Virus record (IMG/VR): IMGVR_UViG_3300001450_000146
Coordinates: 6,985-31,510 of that record
Reading direction: 5' to 3' (one strand)
DNA from: a virus
Length of the DNA: 24,526 nt
Shown: in pieces, positions 1,099 through 23,753 of the stretch
How positions within the stretch are numbered: position 1 is the stretch's first letter
How the letters are laid out: each line of letters starts with the position of its first letter
Position numbers and translations under genes: made by a program
The notes under the pieces: model-generated
Seen by the model: only the letters and a program-made list of their open reading frames with translations
What the model was told of the DNA's origin: nothing
Database searches by the model: none

Positions 1099-1136
1099 GT
1101 TTATATTGAATGATTAATTAAACCACGGAGAGACCA

Positions 1137-1584: not shown

Positions 1585-1599
1585 ACCACGGAGGCGACC

Positions 1600-2658: not shown

Positions 2659-4261
2659 CTGTTATCTCCCGCAACATTCTTTCAAATTCTCTGACTGTAT
2701 TTGGAAACAGTTTTCTCGCTTCATTCATGGCTCGTTTATTGCCATGTATTGCAAACAGATTAGCAAATGTTTCGTAATAAAACGACCCCGACCTTTTATA
2801 ATAATTTCTACCGTGACCCCACGCGCCAAAATCAGTGTAGAAGATACCCTTGGACATCGCATCAATTATATCCGATATAGAATTTGCACCATCGTATCGC
2901 GGTGACCAAGCCTTATATTGATACGACATTCCCTTTCTGCGGCCTCTAGTATACGTTTTTATTTTGTCAACCTGTTCTAAAAGTTCGTCTCTTAACATTG
3001 CAAGTTGTGGCTTGGTATCTGCACCCAATCTAAAACCCAACATATCATCAAAATCTGTGCCATCTACCGCCAAGCCAATTGCTTTGGCATCATCAATAAA
3101 TGCCCTTTGGAAGCCCTTATCTTGTTGTGACAAGTACCGCATTTTCTTTGATGCTGTAAAATCTACATGATGCCCATACTCATGCTCTAAGGTATTGGAT
3201 TCTAAATCAGACGAGATGAGCATAATCTCTCTCTGATAAAAGCCTCTTTTTGATTTCTTGATGGTATTTGGCTTTGGCAATTTGATTGCTGCGGCCAATG
3301 CTAAACCAGACAGATTATCATTTAGCTTTTCATTATACTGTTGTCGAATCTTGGGCGAGGCAACCGAAAGGGTGCTTGCTATATCTAACCTACCTCTAAC
3401 CTCTTGGGTTGGAGGCTTATCATCTGCAAACACTTCATCTTCTGGGCTTATATAAAGGGTTACACAACGACAGTTTATAACATTAGCTGCCCCGCCTTTT
3501 GGGTCGCCTGTGTACCCCATAGCAACGCCGCCAATAATAAAATCTTCGTCAAGCTCTACCTCTGTGCCATTTGCTTGTGCGTGAGTGCTTCTTGAACGCA
3601 AATCAGCAACGCTAACCCAACGCTTCTTTTGATTTGGAATATTCAGGCTGGCATTTACCGAATGATTGGCATAACTGGCGGCAGAATGGGTTTCTGTTCT
3701 GGCTATCGTATTGGCTCTATAGCGGCTGAATGGACTATTCATAGAAGCCCTAATTGCCTTTCCAATAACATTTACCCCATTGCCATCTTGAAGCCCTTGA
3801 TTCACGATAGAGTTTATTTGCCTCATTGTCGTACTGCTTATCTGCGTTACTCTTAAGGCTCCATAATCTCGCACATAGTTCCTGATGATATTTTCGAACT
3901 GACTATCTGCCTTTTGGTCACGCAAAATCCGCAAGCCAAATGCTTCAATCACAGCCCGATAATGAGTATCTAAAGCAACTTTCAGATTTCTTTGCAAATC
4001 CCTGTCTGTTGCAATCAATCTACCAGCTTGGATATATTCTTTTTCTGCATCTTTGCCAGCATCCGCAAAAACATTCTGCATCTGTAATCGCAGCTTACGC
4101 TCAAAACCAATTCGTAATCGGTTCTGCTCTACAAATTCTTTTCTTGCGCTAATCCTTTTGCGTGATGATTTGCTGGAAATGCTTGGGTATGATTTAACCT
4201 TGGCATCACCAGTACACACTGGCACAGCAGTATACGAGGTGGGTTTTTGCGATTTGAGCAT
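2651..4261 (-). CDS. MuF-like head morphogenesis protein fused to a zincin-type domain
   Basis: This 536-residue protein has two parts. Residues about 90-275 match the phage Mu F-like minor head domain: helical region, ARTETHSAAS at 187-196, then WVSVADLRSRSTHAQANG and a NCRC element near 263-266. MuF proteins sit at the portal and can be ejected with DNA. Residues about 320-536 form a second domain with LEHEYGHHVD (H360, E361, H364, H365), a zinc-metallopeptidase HExxH motif, and a downstream YYETFANLFA (E497) that could supply the third ligand. The start ATG overlaps the portal stop as TAATG. MuF proteins fused to peptidase or toxin domains are known; which substrate this one cuts, and whether it acts in the capsid or the host, is not visible. 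Confidence 0.85.
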   Translation of the reverse strand: MLKSQKPTSYTAVPVCTGDAKVKSYPSISSKSSRKRISARKEFVEQNRLRIGFERKLRLQMQNVFADAGKDAEKEYIQAGRLIATDRDLQRNLKVALDTHYRAVIEAFGLRILRDQKADSQFENIIRNYVRDYGALRVTQISSTTMRQINSIVNQGLQDGNGVNVIGKAIRASMNSPFSRYRANTIARTETHSAASYANHSVNASLNIPNQKKRWVSVADLRSRSTHAQANGTEVELDEDFIIGGVAMGYTGDPKGGAANVINCRCVTLYISPEDEVFADDKPPTQEVRGRLDIASTLSVASPKIRQQYNEKLNDNLSGLALAAAIKLPKPNTIKKSKRGFYQREIMLISSDLESNTLEHEYGHHVDFTASKKMRYLSQQDKGFQRAFIDDAKAIGLAVDGTDFDDMLGFRLGADTKPQLAMLRDELLEQVDKIKTYTRGRRKGMSYQYKAWSPRYDGANSISDIIDAMSKGIFYTDFGAWGHGRNYYKRSGSFYYETFANLFAIHGNKRAMNEARKLFPNTVREFERMLREITDG

Positions 4262-8613: not shown

Positions 8614-9492
8614 TTACTTCATCGTCTTTAATTTCATTCCGTATTCATTAACCCCTTGTTTTGCAACGTAATCGTCTTTCAGTATTAAACGATTTTGTTT
8701 CTTGAATTTATTGTAGTTCACATGATGGTGAGGTCTACCATATCTCCATACCATTTTACTTACATCTGGGTGCAATCTCATTTGCATTGCAGACTTTGGG
8801 GCTGTCCCCTCTTTGGCATAAAATTCTTCAGTATTACCGCCCTTAACAGTTTGGGTATTAGCCTTCTCCTGTAAGAAAGCATTGAACTGAATAGTGCAGT
8901 ATTTTGCTTTAAGCATTTGAAGAGACAGGTCTGTATCTTCGTTATATCTACCTCTCCATCTGAAAGGCACATCATTACGGATTAGATTGCATGAGTAAAT
9001 TCTGGTATTAACTGTGAATGGTCCATAATCTTTTGCCCACTTATCTACCACGAAGAACATATAATTTGGACCTGCCATAGCAACATTCTTATAGCGCAAG
9101 ACAAAATCTTCCATCGCCTTGAATGGTGTCCCGTCATAACACTTAATGCGCTTATTATCTCTCCATCTGCGAAACGATTTGATATTATCGTCCATTACCC
9201 AATGCCAAGCATGACCTTCTGAGATTGAATGTTCCCAAATAAAGTTTCGGGCGGCTCCGGGTCCCTTGCTACGAGTTGCGCCAAGGTCATCACAGGTATC
9301 GTATTCATCTTGAAATTTTTTATCTAAAACCAAGAGGCTTTCTTTTGGGACATATTCTAAATATTCTTTGTATTCCTGTTCTTCTATCACAAGGCGATAT
9401 GGCACTTTCATTGAATCCAGTGCCTTCGCAGTCAATCTACTATCTGCCCTTCCCTTTGATGGGATATATAAGGAAAATTGTGGATTATTCAC
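8614..9492 (-). CDS. TET-associated-type glycosyltransferase (TAGT-like)
   Basis: This 292-residue protein has features of a GT-A-like family I recognise as the TET-associated glycosyltransferase, which in other phages decorates modified pyrimidines in DNA. The visible features are YIPSKGR (9-15) at the nucleotide-sugar-binding N-terminus, a DDN at 101-103 (VMDDNIKSFRRW) as the metal or sugar-binding DxD equivalent, and NEDTDLSL (184-191). The start is a GTG at 9492 overlapping the ParB-like gene's stop by eight bases, with AAGGG upstream; later ATGs would delete the first strand. It lies next to ParB-like and terminase genes, a known neighbourhood for this family. No cytosine methylase or TET/JBP oxygenase is in view, so the substrate is open. 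Confidence 0.75.
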   Translation of the reverse strand: MNNPQFSLYIPSKGRADSRLTAKALDSMKVPYRLVIEEQEYKEYLEYVPKESLLVLDKKFQDEYDTCDDLGATRSKGPGAARNFIWEHSISEGHAWHWVMDDNIKSFRRWRDNKRIKCYDGTPFKAMEDFVLRYKNVAMAGPNYMFFVVDKWAKDYGPFTVNTRIYSCNLIRNDVPFRWRGRYNEDTDLSLQMLKAKYCTIQFNAFLQEKANTQTVKGGNTEEFYAKEGTAPKSAMQMRLHPDVSKMVWRYGRPHHHVNYNKFKKQNRLILKDDYVAKQGVNEYGMKLKTMK

Positions 9493-10132
9493 TTGTGTAT
9501 CCCTTATCTTTTAATACATCATTTATTCTCACAGGATGCCACATAGAGGTTACTGGAACACCATTGCGCTTTTCTTGTTCACTGTCTTTGATGTCTTGGC
9601 CTATTCTTTGAGACAAGTCCGCCAAATCATCTGCGTTTCGCACATGAACAACTACTGTCCTGTAAGGCTTAAGGTCTTGATGGTCGAATGATGGCATATC
9701 ATTCCAATGCTCATCAGGCTTGAACCAATCGGCTTTTACATCATCAATAGATAAAAGGCTGTCAAGCTCTGCATCTTCAAATCCCAATTTACTTAAATCA
9801 AAATCACCATTTATCAAATCGTTTAATTCTTCTGTGAGGAACTTATATTCCCAATCGGTATCTTGATTGAGCCTATTATCGGCTATTCTATATGCTGTAG
9901 CTTTCTTTTCGTCTAAATCAGCCACAACAACAGGCACTTCTTTCAGACCAAGCATTTTAGATGCCGCATATCTCGTATGACCCACAACAATCACCAGATT
10001 TTTATCTACAACAATAGGCTGTTGAAACCCATATTCTTTTATAGACGCCGCCACCTTGTCAGCATTTGGGTTTTTTCTGGGATTTTTTTGGTATGGTACA
10101 AGCTTATCTAGCTCAATGGTCTCTACATTCAT
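9485..10132 (-). CDS. ParB/sulfiredoxin-fold (ParB N-terminal domain) protein
   Basis: The 215-residue protein begins with MNVETIELDKLVPYQKNPRK, the typical opening of phage ParB-like nuclease-fold proteins. PIVVDKNLVIVVGHTRYAA follows (GHTR at 51-54, the conserved nucleotide-binding motif), then ATAYRIADNRLN. The C-terminal half is acidic, ending in a region (PYRTVVVHVR) like those found in phage proteins with a DNA-modification role. I chose the ATG at 10132 over the in-frame GTG at 10168, which lacks a ribosome site and sits close to the upstream terminator. Function in this context (DNA modification, nuclease or regulator) is inferred. Confidence 0.8.
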   Translation of the reverse strand: MNVETIELDKLVPYQKNPRKNPNADKVAASIKEYGFQQPIVVDKNLVIVVGHTRYAASKMLGLKEVPVVVADLDEKKATAYRIADNRLNQDTDWEYKFLTEELNDLINGDFDLSKLGFEDAELDSLLSIDDVKADWFKPDEHWNDMPSFDHQDLKPYRTVVVHVRNADDLADLSQRIGQDIKDSEQEKRNGVPVTSMWHPVRINDVLKDKGYTSE

Positions 10133-10185
10133 ATGAACAGCCCTTTTTAATTCCCCATAATGGGACACTTAAAGCACTATACGAT

Positions 10186-10230
10186 AAAAACAAAGCAAAG
10201 AAAAGGGGACTGAGCCAAAACCCAATCCCC
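10186..10230 (-). terminator. Rho-independent terminator of the small RNA
   Basis: On the minus strand GGGGATTGGG, a six-base loop, and CTCAGTCCCC form a ten-pair stem including two G-U wobbles (10230-10205), followed by TTTTCTTTGCTTTGTTTTT. On the plus strand the wobbles would be A-C mismatches and there is no T tract, so the element is specific to minus-strand transcription. It ends the small RNA from 10292 and partly insulates the ParB-like gene from the upstream replication genes. Confidence 0.85.
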
Positions 10231-10292
10231 TTAAAGTAACCAACGGTGTAGGCGACCAAACCATTCACCACGGAGACAATCCTTAGATTGCT
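10204..10292 (-). ncRNA. Candidate trans-acting anti-leader small RNA
   Basis: This gap has no ORF on either strand but has a promoter, a predicted start near 10292-10291 and a strong terminator. The RNA would begin with a perfect hairpin (CAATC-TAAG-GATTG, 10290-10277). It then exposes three antisense elements: GTCTCCGTGGT (10277-10267), TTTGGTCGCCT (10260-10250) and CCGTTGGTT (10246-10238). These are exact complements of the three modules that make up the phage's shared ribosome-binding leaders (ACCACGGAGAC, AGGCGACCAAA, AACCAACGG). Pairing would cover the Shine-Dalgarno of at least nine plus-strand genes and, with one G-U pair, the leaders of the primase-helicase and initiator-like genes. 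The structure is read directly; the regulatory role is inference. Confidence 0.75.
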
Positions 10293-10297
10293 TAAAA

Positions 10298-10325
10298 ATA
10301 TTACCACAATATATGGTATTGTCTA
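10298..10325 (-). promoter_or_regulatory. Promoter of the small RNA
   Basis: TAGACA (10325-10320) and TAATAT (10303-10298) are 16 bases apart on the minus strand, with TGG just before the -10 as in the P1 and P2 promoters. The spacer lacks the GAAAACA of those promoters. Instead it carries a different imperfect inverted repeat (AATACCA, seven bases, TGGTAAT), so it may answer to another regulator. It begins four bases after the methyltransferase-like gene's stop. Confidence 0.7.
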
Positions 10326-12646: not shown

Positions 12647-12650
12647 TTGG

Positions 12651-13277
12651 TCACCCCGCTAGTTGGTTCTTATTTTTATTTATAGATTGCTCTTCGTCTA
12701 CTGTCTCCCATCTTCTTTGATTCAGCCATGTTGTGGCATGAGGGATAAATTTTTTATCTTTATCAACGGTTGTTCGTTTGAACTTACAGGTCTTCAGGAA
12801 TAAATCTCTGGCATCAATATCTTTATCTACAACCCTTTTCCATATTTCGTATGCCTTTGCCTTAGAACCATCGTTGCGCGGATATGCGTTCCACCATTCC
12901 AAGAACTCTGAGGCATATTTGTCACCCCTCTTTGTATTATTAGGTTGTATATCTCTAATAGTATTGGGTGTATTATTTGTCACCCTCTGGGTGTCGATTC
13001 TGTCACCCCTAATCATGCTCAAAATGAACCTATTGCTTGTCTGCTTTCCAGTATCGGTAAATCTTTTTTCAACAGATACCAAATCATCATCATAAAGTGA
13101 TTTTATAGCCCTCATTATAGAACGCTCATTGCACTCACATAATTTTGCAAGATGTTTATAACTTGGATATGTAGAATTATTCTCGTCTGAATAATTCGCA
13201 AGCATCAAAAGAACTAATTTTGTAAGAGAATTTTTGCAGGACTGTTTTGCCGCCCAAGCCATAGCATCAAAGCTCAT
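12651..13277 (-). CDS. Replication initiator-like helix-turn-helix protein
   Basis: The N-terminal third of the 208-residue protein is a winged-helix DNA-binding domain (SLTKLVLLMLANYSDEN, PSYKHLAKLCECNERSIMRA) of the type found in phage replication O-like and DnaD-like proteins. The C-terminal part has FLEWWNAYPRNDGSKAKAYE and HATTWLNQRRW, a module that often follows such domains and is linked to helicase loading. The ATG at 13277 follows ATACGGAGGTATTA, an excellent Shine-Dalgarno; the longer reading from 13343 lacks one. It lies directly upstream of the primase-helicase, as expected for an initiator or loader. Its leader CAGGTGACCAA resembles the one before the DUF932 gene. Confidence 0.8.
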   Translation of the reverse strand: MSFDAMAWAAKQSCKNSLTKLVLLMLANYSDENNSTYPSYKHLAKLCECNERSIMRAIKSLYDDDLVSVEKRFTDTGKQTSNRFILSMIRGDRIDTQRVTNNTPNTIRDIQPNNTKRGDKYASEFLEWWNAYPRNDGSKAKAYEIWKRVVDKDIDARDLFLKTCKFKRTTVDKDKKFIPHATTWLNQRRWETVDEEQSINKNKNQLAG

Positions 13278-13342
13278 TAATACCTCCGTATGATTGGTCA
13301 CCTGATTTAAAAGGTAATATATAAATGGATTTCTGTAAACCA

Positions 13343-13743: not shown

Positions 13744-13778
13744 GTATATATTGATTGAACCAAACCACGGAGACTAAA

Positions 13779-14583: not shown

Positions 14584-15038
14584 TGAATACGGCACTTAAT
14601 AACCATAAGGGTAAATGGTTTGAAATTGTAAATCGGAAAAAGGTTTATCAGAACAGGTGTTTATGCTGTAATAAAACTCACGCTGAATTGAAAAAAGACT
14701 TCAGGAAATTTACAAAAAATAGAATAGAGCTAGACCTCGCCTCAAAAACACGAACAATGATACTTCATGGGTTCAAAGACCATATTGGCACTGAAAACCA
14801 AGGAAGTCATTATTGGTATACTTGGCATGGCGACCCATGTAGATGCTGTGGTGGCGCGCCTCAAACTATAGGCGAATTGTTCTTGGCTGTATATTCTGAA
14901 GGTCAATGGTACTGCAATAAATGTTATGCTGAAAACCCAAAAGATAATTCTGGAAAATGGATTTTTGCACCAATCGGGCAACGCAAATATTTGCCAGATG
15001 ATGATGAAGAACAGACCGCCAACTCCGTGGTAAGATAA
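14583..15038 (+). CDS. Hypothetical zinc-binding protein; 3' end encodes an anti-leader hairpin
   Basis: This 151-residue protein has several Cys clusters that look like zinc-binding knuckles: CLCC (27-30), PCRCCGG (about 85-91) and CNKC (112-115). It starts in a TAATG overlap. Its last codons (encoding TANSVVR) lie within a six-pair hairpin, ACCGCC with GGCGGT, whose loop reads CTCCGTGGT, the complement of the shared leader ACCACGGAG. A strong terminator follows within ten bases. The protein's function is unknown; the 3' end may act as a regulatory RNA in its own right. Confidence 0.75.
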   Translation: MNTALNNHKGKWFEIVNRKKVYQNRCLCCNKTHAELKKDFRKFTKNRIELDLASKTRTMILHGFKDHIGTENQGSHYWYTWHGDPCRCCGGAPQTIGELFLAVYSEGQWYCNKCYAENPKDNSGKWIFAPIGQRKYLPDDDEEQTANSVVR

Positions 15039-16771: not shown

Positions 16772-16788
16772 CCACTTTAGAGGCGACC

Positions 16789-17547
16789 ATGAATCATTTT
16801 GAAAAACACGGATTGATGCATTTAAGCCCATCAACAATTAACCAATGGATAGCTGAGCCAGCATTATGCTTGCTAAAAATAGCTGGAATAACTGATGGTG
16901 AGGCTGGCGCGGCAGCATGGAGAGGCACAAGCGCGGATAGGGCATTGGCAAAGGTTGCCAGCAATAGCGACGTATCAGATGAAGCTCTTGTGAATATGGC
17001 AAACAAGATTTTTGACGAGCAATATAAAAATGCACAAAATCATCACGACACAGAAAAAGTTCAAAAAGAACGAGACGAATTAACAAAATATATCACAGTC
17101 GGTGCCAAATTTTACAGGTCGCTTGGCGAAAAGCCTGTATCTGAACAGGGCAAAGTTACGACAATGCTTCCTGATATTAAGATACCTTTTATTGGTTATT
17201 ATGACCTTCTTTATAAAGATAAGGTTCGTGATACCAAAACAGTGGGTCGGATGACATCATCTGTAACCCAAGCCCATAATCGTCAAGCAAGTCTATATGG
17301 CTACGTTTTACAAAAAGAGCCTTGGCTTGATTATGTGGGCAAGAAAGAAGTACGCGCCTTCAAGGTTGATGACGTGCCATATTACATCAGGCAGATGCAA
17401 TTAGCCGCCCTTTCTCTTGAGCGTGTGCTTTCTTATAGCGATGACATATTTGAATGTTGTCAATTAGTATTCCCTGACTTTGATAATTATCGCTGGGGAG
17501 AAGTGACCAAGGCGGCCGCCAAAGACATCTGGAAAATGGAGAGATAA
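16789..17547 (+). CDS. PD-(D/E)XK exonuclease (RecB/Cas4-like)
   Basis: This is a 252-residue nuclease of the PD-(D/E)XK phage exonuclease type. LSPSTINQWIAEPALCLLK (12-30) is the characteristic opening of Cas4- and RecB-like nucleases. FIGYYDLLYKDKVRDTKTVG gives the active site (D139, then D148-T-K150), and QASLYGYVL (166-174) supplies motif QxxxY. It probably resects DNA ends for the ERF annealing protein one base downstream. The leader AGAGGCGACCATG carries the second shared module (AGGCGACCA). A later start would lose the N-terminal motif. Confidence 0.87.
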   Translation: MNHFEKHGLMHLSPSTINQWIAEPALCLLKIAGITDGEAGAAAWRGTSADRALAKVASNSDVSDEALVNMANKIFDEQYKNAQNHHDTEKVQKERDELTKYITVGAKFYRSLGEKPVSEQGKVTTMLPDIKIPFIGYYDLLYKDKVRDTKTVGRMTSSVTQAHNRQASLYGYVLQKEPWLDYVGKKEVRAFKVDDVPYYIRQMQLAALSLERVLSYSDDIFECCQLVFPDFDNYRWGEVTKAAAKDIWKMER

Positions 17548-20688: not shown

Positions 20689-20721
20689 TTGTTTTCAATA
20701 GAAACCAACGGAGACTGAAAA

Positions 20722-20916: not shown

Positions 20917-21158
20917 TGATGAAACCAGAACAATTCCGCAATATTAGAGCGAATATGGGATTAAGCCAACACAAATTGGCTTTGCTTCTTGGTTACGAAG
21001 ATAGGTCTACAATTTCTAATTTTGAAAGCGGTAGGCGTGAAATAAACCCACGAATTGAAAAATTGATACTGGCAATGTCATTATCATTTTTTTCAGATAA
21101 AGAAACCAACGGAGACCACAATGATAAATTGGCACAACGCACCAGAATACTCTCATAA
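20916..21158 (+). CDS. XRE-family HTH regulator
   Basis: This 80-residue protein has a textbook helix-turn-helix of the phage repressor type: FRNIRANMGLSQHKLALLLG, then DRSTISNFESGRREINPRIEKL (residues 7-50). The C-terminal tail (FFSDKETNGDHNDK) is outside the domain. It is coupled to the gene before. The next gene's leader (AACCAACGGAGACC) lies inside its 3' end. It is a candidate to bind the GAAAACA/TGTTTTC inverted repeat in its own promoter region and the shared promoters. Confidence 0.88.
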   Translation: MMKPEQFRNIRANMGLSQHKLALLLGYEDRSTISNFESGRREINPRIEKLILAMSLSFFSDKETNGDHNDKLAQRTRILS

Positions 21159-21832: not shown

Positions 21833-21860
21833 CTGAAAAAATAAAACCACGGAGGCGACC

Positions 21861-22046: not shown

Positions 22047-22070
22047 TCAGGCGACCAAAAGGAGATGAAG

Positions 22071-23177: not shown

Positions 23178-23753
23178 ATGAGCATGGTCATACCGCCAAA
23201 CCATAGACAGGGCGAATTAGGTGTTATTAGCCCATTGGAATTAGACAAAGTTCAATGCAGAGATATTATAGAACTTCACAAAGACCCACAAAATGTTCAC
23301 AAAACAGCAAGGATAAACGCTGAAAATTCAAATGTTGTGGATTTAAAAACAAGAGATACAGATGTTTGGGTTATCCATGAAGACCATAATTGGGTTGATG
23401 CTTTAATCTGTACTGCCGCTTTGACAGCTAATCAAACATTTGAATTGAACATAAGCGGGTTAATGGAACGCCCTCAATTACTTCGATATAAAGCACCATC
23501 CAACGGATATGATTGGCATATGGATATTGGGAGAGGTGATGCCTCAACCAGAAAAATAAGCATATCAATATTGCTAAACGATGATTATGAGGGCGGCGAA
23601 CTAGGATTCTTCATAACAGGTGACCAATCAATTAAGCCTGACACTGGACAAGCCATAGCCTTCCCATCGTTTTTGCCTCATAGGGTTACACCTTTAACCA
23701 AAGGCATCAGGTGGTCATTGGTATGCTGGATTACAGGTGAACCATTTAGATAG
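23178..23753 (+). CDS. 2OG-Fe(II) dioxygenase (prolyl-hydroxylase-like)
   Basis: This 191-residue oxygenase carries the full iron and 2-oxoglutarate site: WHMDIG (H114, D116), FLPHRVTP (H168) and IRWSLVCW (R178 binding 2OG). GGELGFF (about 139-145) is the usual strand before the second metal ligand. This arrangement fits the small prolyl-4-hydroxylase and PKHD-type group common in marine phages, not TET/JBP enzymes. The substrate is unknown. It has a very strong ribosome site (AGGAGGATTAA). Its stop overlaps the convergent minus-strand gene by eight bases. Confidence 0.88.
   Translation: MSMVIPPNHRQGELGVISPLELDKVQCRDIIELHKDPQNVHKTARINAENSNVVDLKTRDTDVWVIHEDHNWVDALICTAALTANQTFELNISGLMERPQLLRYKAPSNGYDWHMDIGRGDASTRKISISILLNDDYEGGELGFFITGDQSIKPDTGQAIAFPSFLPHRVTPLTKGIRWSLVCWITGEPFR

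Follow-up and report, generated by a model that had tools for sequence, protein, structure and literature searches.

The locus and the predicted RNA

Can a bacteriophage hold down a whole set of its own genes with one small RNA directed at their ribosome-binding sites? The question is raised by an intergenic locus at 10203-10325 on the minus strand of a stretch of 24,526 nucleotides (hereafter the window), which corresponds to bases 6985-31510 of a 31,510-base (31.5-kb) IMG/VR phage record. The locus is flanked by a methyltransferase-like gene (phrog_799) and a ParB-like gene. It had been proposed, from the letters alone, that it encodes an antisense RNA with three modules, each complementary to a different class of ribosome-binding leader. 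The explanation that we favour, with a probability of roughly 0.8, is a trans-acting antisense sRNA, produced from this locus, that would block translation initiation of the replication and early genes of the phage.

Re-reading of the sequence bore out the sigma70-like promoter, the 5′ hairpin of the transcript and the three modules, all of which are present on the minus strand where they had been placed (Table 1). An intrinsic terminator is present as well, with a stem of 13 pairs instead of the ten originally counted. At the level of sequence, promoter and terminator delimit a free-standing transcription unit. The window RNA folds better than its own shuffles (MFE z = -3.25). Nevertheless, in the fold of the sRNA alone modules 1 to 3 lie partly inside a hairpin, which counts against the favoured explanation; because of this partial pairing, the accessibility of the modules, whether intrinsic or chaperone-aided, is only presumed. 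A 64-aa ORF covering the locus (10113-10307, minus) was rejected as protein-coding, its frame being broken or changed in L063, L018, L017, L006 and L027. Elsewhere in the window, a TET-associated glycosyltransferase (PF20691) and a 2OG-Fe(II) oxygenase are encoded at 8614-9492 (minus) and 23178-23753 (plus), a pair that suggests hypermodified phage DNA.

Table 1. Features of the predicted sRNA gene and of its candidate target leaders (window coordinates)
Feature	Position	Strand	Remarks
Sigma70-like promoter	10298..10325	-	TAGACA (10325-10320), 16 nt, TGG before TAATAT (10303-10298)
Predicted antisense sRNA, ~90 nt	10203..10292	-	Start near 10292 inferred; homologues in relatives
5′ hairpin GCAATC-TAAG-GATTGT of sRNA	10276..10291	-	From the fold; kept with changes in L063 and L018
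Module 1, GTCTCCGTGGT	10267..10277	-	Complement of ACCACGGAGAC; includes anti-Shine-Dalgarno CTCC
Module 2, TTTGGTCGCCT	10250..10260	-	Complement of AGGCGACCAAA
Module 3, CCGTTGGTT	10238..10246	-	Complement of AACCAACGG
Intrinsic terminator	10203..10232	-	13-pair stem, TTCTTT tail
Target leader ACCACGGAGAGACCA	1122..1136	+	Before ATG 1137
Target leader ACCACGGAGGCGACC	1585..1599	+	Before ATG 1600; modules 1 and 2
Target leader ACCAAACCACGGAGACTAAA	13759..13778	+	Before ATG 13779; modules 1 and 2 colinear
Target leader ACCACGGAGACCAAA	13949..13963	+	Before ATG 13964
Target leader AGGCGACCA	16781..16789	+	Overlaps ATG 16789; phrog_10230 protein
Target leader AACCAACGGAGAC	20703..20721	+	Before ATG 20722
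Target leader AACCAACGGAGACCACA	21104..21120	+	Before ATG 21121
Target leader ACCACGGAGGCGACC	21846..21860	+	Before ATG 21861
Target leader AGGCGACCAAAAGGAG	22049..22070	+	Before ATG 22071; DUF932 protein
Target leader GGTGACCAATCATACGGAGG of replication initiator (phrog_270)	13278..13302	-	Modules 2 and 1 pair colinearly
Target leader AACCAACTAGCGGGGTGACCAA of DnaB-type primase-helicase	12647..12668	-	Modules 3 and 2 pair colinearly

Complementarity to ribosome-binding leaders

Complements of the three modules are found in roughly nine leaders of plus-strand early genes and, in addition, in those of the replication initiator and the helicase. The latter two had been mentioned only in passing as replication leaders, and they represent the most conserved targets. 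The individual matches claimed for the modules fared unevenly. The module 1 target ACCACGGAGAC occurs exactly (11 nt) at 13764 and 13949, but only 10 nt of it are found at 1122, which had been listed with them; 9 nt are shared at 1585 and 21846. Similarly, the module 2 target AGGCGACCAAA is exact at 22049, whereas the copies at 16781, 1592 and 21853 amount to only 9 nt. Both copies of the module 3 target AACCAACGG, at 20703 and 21104, are exact. Some exact matches lie outside leaders (ACCACGGAG at 15031 and AGGCGACC at 3509, both minus).

Pairing falls on the Shine-Dalgarno sequence, on the start codon or immediately upstream, and in most targets on one of the first two. Predicted duplex energies run from -20.9 to -33.4 kcal/mol over the twelve leaders tabulated for energy and from -10.6 to -19.3 kcal/mol at eight other starts, except for the portal start, the codon of which is uncertain and which reaches -27.4 kcal/mol.

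Complementarity to several Shine-Dalgarno and start regions exceeds chance, as had been claimed for the matches to three leader classes. Of 54 leaders called automatically, 7 contain an exact 9-mer complementary to the window RNA, versus a mean of 0.45 in dinucleotide shuffles, none of 500 of which reached 7 (maximum, 4 leaders). When G-U pairs are allowed, 9 leaders form a helix of -16 kcal/mol or lower, compared with a mean of 0.72 in shuffles (0/240 as good) and about 0.5 in in-gene control segments; the counts of 7 and 9 are both lower bounds, as the gene caller misses some of the listed leaders. In the clade of relatives that carries the seed TTCGTGGT, the seed pairs the leader word ACCACGGAG through one G-U, so the exact-match genome scan is uninformative there and was replaced by a helix-energy test with G-U. 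Under that test the summed helix energy lay above all 240 shuffles in 8 of the 12 phages tested, G032 and G014 showing no excess. Terminator stems dominate the result when unmasked sRNAs are given to RNAduplex or a lax helix cut-off of -13 is used; the stems were therefore masked and the cut-offs tightened.

Conservation of the sRNA and of the leader words

The helicase protein was used to collect relatives of the phage (80 loci). Within this family of uncultivated phages, about 20 distinct relatives of the sRNA were recognised, the majority immediately 3′ of the helicase gene. In the near relatives L002, L018 and L063 the element occupies the same place as in the window, and L018 and L063 retain modules 1 and 2 with hardly any change, sharing the identical bases CTCCGTGGT in module 1. 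Module 3 is variable, reading CCAATGGTT in L063 and being lost in L017, and L018 has an unrelated terminator stem in place of that of the window. Around twenty further contigs carry a unit composed of a promoter (T[GA]GACA-N14-19-TAnnnT), the seed TTCGTGGT and a terminator with the loop TTTGGTC(GC). This unit follows the helicase directly in most of them and lies elsewhere in L022-26, L033 and probably L103, and the promoter pattern is retained in the relocated sRNA genes too.

An alignment of 16 relatives reveals that the two anti-leader segments, TTCGTGGT (the seed, within module 1) and TTTGGTCGC (the loop), are the only invariant ones, while 8 of the 11 pairs of the terminator stem have compensatory changes. 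In most relatives the position of module 2 is that of the terminator loop. A covariance model built from these 16 relatives recovers the sRNAs of G014, G016, G017 and G018, all of them outside the training set, with E values of 4e-7 to 2e-4. The window's own element scores weakly with this model (E = 0.08), and its kinship to the wider family consequently rests on position, promoter and module 2.

On the side of the targets, ACCACGGAG is the commonest upstream 9-mer found without supervision, or ties with shifted forms of itself, in most long sRNA-bearing records. It is present in 3-12 copies per record, each followed by an ATG, usually exactly six bases on, and the copies are confined to one strand per record, opposite to the helicase where this was compared. 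The reversed control pattern gave one match in 36 records. When G-U pairs are counted, complementarity between the G002 sRNA and AACCACGGAGACCAAAATG runs unbroken for 19 positions and takes in the start codon. No leader word of the ACCACGGAG type is seen in the more distant relatives G014 and G016-G022, and none of these words lies upstream of initiator or helicase in L044-L081, whose helicases fall below about 60% identity.

Several further features were noticed around these genes. One more stretch, CAGCATCTCCACG, is conserved among the sRNAs of L022, L026, L033 and L103; the complement of GCATCTCCA is found in G010 in both the Erf-like gene's leader (TGGAGATGC) and the initiator leader (TGGAGATG). 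In L039 (G018), some 130-190 bases 3′ of the helicase end, CCGTTGGAC is repeated in tandem directly after the sRNA terminator; the tract holds five copies of CCGTTGG, a word shared with module 3 of the window RNA, and L038 has diverged copies of it. Just 3′ of the sRNA in L019, L020, L021 and L027 lies a tRNA-like tract (GTTGGTGTAGCAT..GGTTCAA..) with an over-long centre, in which ARAGORN calls no tRNA. Finally, L178 (G035; about 15773, minus), L085, L098 and L109 contain a structured sRNA-like unit of several hairpins, two of the loops being TTGGTC and TTTGGTCG. The helicase of this phage is 62% identical, and in L178 its leader ACCACGAACCT faces the sRNA segment AGGTTCGTGGT.

Co-variation of the sRNA and its leaders

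The original prediction would have been contradicted by relatives in which the leaders drift and the antisense elements do not follow. The initiator (phrog_270) and helicase leaders were listed across all loci, and the opposite was found: loss or replacement of a module is mirrored by loss or replacement of its site, and cognate pairing is stronger than swapped pairing. Most phages with the seed TTCGTGGT have ACCACGAA in both the initiator and the helicase leader. At the helicase these bases are also codons of the 3′ end of the initiator gene, with the Thr codons ACC ACG nearly constant, so a coding constraint contributes there. The sRNAs of L030, L032 and L034 have two TTTGGTCGC loops instead of the TTCGTGGT seed, and ACCACGAA is missing from both their helicase and their initiator leaders, the latter reading GCGACCAA in L030 and L032.

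Whole words have also been exchanged. In L017 the sRNA reads CTCCGTAG..TTTGGTCGCC and is colinear with the initiator leader GGCGACCAAA-TAA-ACGGAG; in L039, TGGTTTGCTTCGTG faces CACGGAGCAAACCA, and in G016, CTCCTATTGGTTTG faces the early leader TAAACCAATAGGAG. A unit directly 3′ of the helicase in G019 carries TTAATTTGTGTTG, matching ACACAAATTAA of the initiator and CAACACAAATT of the helicase. G021 and G022 were scanned without bias for the site with the greatest complementarity to their leaders, and the best hit in either genome was an element that has a terminator. Its TTCATTCTC in G021, or TCATTCTC in G022, is matched by GAGAATGA(A) in the leaders of the initiator, the helicase and early genes. 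This element superseded a weaker first candidate in G021 (TTTCTTTCCGTAGG before a terminator). The same type of scan gave no clear unit in G020.

A swap test, in which the duplex energy of every leader with every sRNA was computed with terminator stems masked and row and column means removed, puts numbers on this specificity. In 17 phages the cognate pairs were lower by 7.3 kcal/mol for the initiator and 7.9 kcal/mol for the helicase (p = 1e-5 for both leaders, the permutation floor). With one phage per clade (11 phages) the differences were 6.3 and 7.7 kcal/mol (p = 1e-5), and the cognate sRNA was the best-ranked partner of 10 of the 11 helicase leaders and of 8 of the 11 initiator leaders. 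Poor initiator ranks were those of G014, G016 and L019. G019, G021 and G022 are not independent in this test because their motifs were found partly via complementarity; without them (13 phages), p is 5e-5 for initiator and helicase alike. The permutations ignore the tree, and shared descent is controlled only via other gene groups, for which the same statistic was calculated on 20 orthologous groups in up to 11 phages. In this control the initiator came first (-6.7, p = 0.0002), the helicase second (-4.5, p = 0.0008) and the Erf annealing gene third (p = 0.002), while portal and terminase were near zero. The results of the swap tests and of the gene-group control point to joint change of the predicted sRNA and its target leaders in about ten phage lineages, which include cases of whole-word replacement.

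A model for the function of the sRNA

From the anatomy of the gene, its conservation and the cognate-specific co-evolution of RNA and leaders we infer that the RNA would be transcribed, bind its targets in vivo, repress rather than activate them and serve a timing or dosage role. In the model, the sRNA would be transcribed from its own promoter and ended by the intrinsic terminator, and two or three modules would base-pair with phage mRNAs around the Shine-Dalgarno sequence or the start codon. The mRNAs concerned would be those for the replication initiator and the helicase and, from the opposite strand, those of a group of early genes. Since pairing covers the Shine-Dalgarno sequence, the start or the stretch just upstream, its simplest consequence would be exclusion of the 30S ribosome. 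With targets of this kind, the RNA would lower the output of the replication and early genes, through timing or through the dosage of replicated genomes, and translation of their proteins would be expected to drop as phage copies and sRNA accumulate. The one-to-many silencing first proposed is thus backed by cognate pairing and co-loss of modules and sites, with transcription and the direction of the effect as its conjectural parts. An integrase (PF00589) was not found in 11 records, several of which are fragments; a lytic-phase role is for this reason weakly favoured.

A narrower version of the model deserves serious weight, although we lean towards the broader one: the RNA may mainly control copy number, with initiator and helicase as the true targets and the early leaders as secondary recruits. 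The cognate signal is indeed strongest in initiator and helicase, and the sRNA gene lies directly 3′ of these genes in most relatives, but the early leaders of the window and of several relatives pair as strongly as those two or more strongly. A different and improbable view is that the sRNA activates or stabilises its target mRNAs, or that it is an RNA directed mainly at host mRNAs, for which the leaders serve as a sponge. The phage RNAs PreS, AgvB and AsxR are known to target host mRNAs or sRNAs (PMC12197685). Here, however, most targets are paired over the Shine-Dalgarno sequence or start codon, which normally blocks initiation, and it is two phage replication genes that give the strongest signal, together with co-evolution.

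It is very unlikely that the leader word is instead the site of a phage protein, either an RNA-binding repressor or a DNA operator, with the inverted copy next to the helicase as an extra site. Such a protein would account for motifs repeated at a fixed distance from starts, as a T4 RegA-like protein would also use, but not for copies bounded by a promoter and a terminator, in a unit with an invariant loop and seed and a co-varying stem. Moreover, the leaders are always sense and the sRNA always their complement, extending into the start codon (19 positions in G002), and the tolerated G-U wobbles fit RNA pairing and not DNA binding. Coincidence, in which Shine-Dalgarno similarity of the usual kind is combined with a terminator that follows the methyltransferase gene, is hardly credible. 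GGAG-like letters are present in most leaders, and any RNA with CUCC would match many starts by a few bases; yet the matches reach well past the Shine-Dalgarno sequence (ACCAC, CGACCAAA, AACCAA), beat shuffles and, in the swap test, track the cognate leader across lineages.

Relation to known regulatory RNAs

The type of mechanism proposed for the sRNA is already known, while its multi-target, own-phage design was not found described: a search of the open-access literature, which took in few subscription papers or preprints, returned no phage RNA acting on a set of its own ribosome-binding sites. The closest phage examples are c4 of P1 and P7 and sar of P22. Each is encoded by a phage and prevents translation of a phage gene by base-pairing around its ribosome-binding site; for c4, the specificity differs among related phages (PMC12197685). 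Unlike the window sRNA, they have one target (ant) and not an early and replication regulon; the target proteins that were inspected here included nothing ant-like. Lambda OOP is likewise a small phage antisense RNA tied to the replication and lysis-lysogeny region, but it is antisense to the single gene cII and leads to RNase III cleavage (PMC12197685). VpdS of VP882 and PreS of lambda also act in trans during the phage cycle, but they are Hfq-dependent, PreS acting on host dnaN and VpdS on host and phage mRNAs, with no shared co-evolving leader code described in that source (PMC12197685).

Outside phages, AbcR1/AbcR2 and NfeR1 of alpha-rhizobia resemble the window sRNA in being trans-encoded with two or three short anti-Shine-Dalgarno modules, and AbcR1/2 act on many mRNAs; they differ in that they belong to bacteria, use CU-rich motifs and target host metabolism (PMC8844928). 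The modules of the window sRNA, in contrast, extend well beyond the Shine-Dalgarno sequence, address the phage's own genes and have co-evolving leaders, and neither of the 8-nt CU-rich AbcR/alpha-r15 motifs CUCCUCCC and UUCCCCUC (PMC8844928) occurs in the window RNA. RNAII of plasmid pMV158 is likewise small and antisense and inhibits the translation of a replication initiator, as the window sRNA would, but it is plasmid-encoded and described on one initiator, with no second target set (PMC4485353).

Database comparisons returned no named counterpart. Rfam gave no match at the curated threshold (best E = 0.06, below every gathering score), megablast of the window against named phages gave no match, and the sRNA itself yielded only unrelated 28-nt hits among them. 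By tblastn, helicase, terminase, portal and initiator reach only distant isolates. One of the phages considered, Roseobacter phage CRP-6, shares the terminase but was set aside, its annotated gene plan being different and the sRNA model finding no hit in it. The 24 hits of a pattern scan of bacterial genomes, mostly GC-rich, showed by eye no promoter-seed-terminator unit and look like chance.

Implications for phage biology

If the favoured explanation is true, the locus would represent a virus-encoded one-to-many translational switch in which the words of the RNA and of its targets co-evolve visibly across many lineages, and these lineages would supply natural compensatory pairs for testing how sRNAs and their targets evolve. 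It would also offer an RNA-level route to the shutdown of early and replication functions in a phage without a detected integrase. In addition, the sRNA may serve in competition with related phages. A more speculative reading, which we regard as doubtful, is that the leaders form a translation code private to each lineage, through which the sRNA would both switch the early and replication block according to copy number and silence incoming relatives. Were that so, superinfection immunity classes would be set by RNA words.
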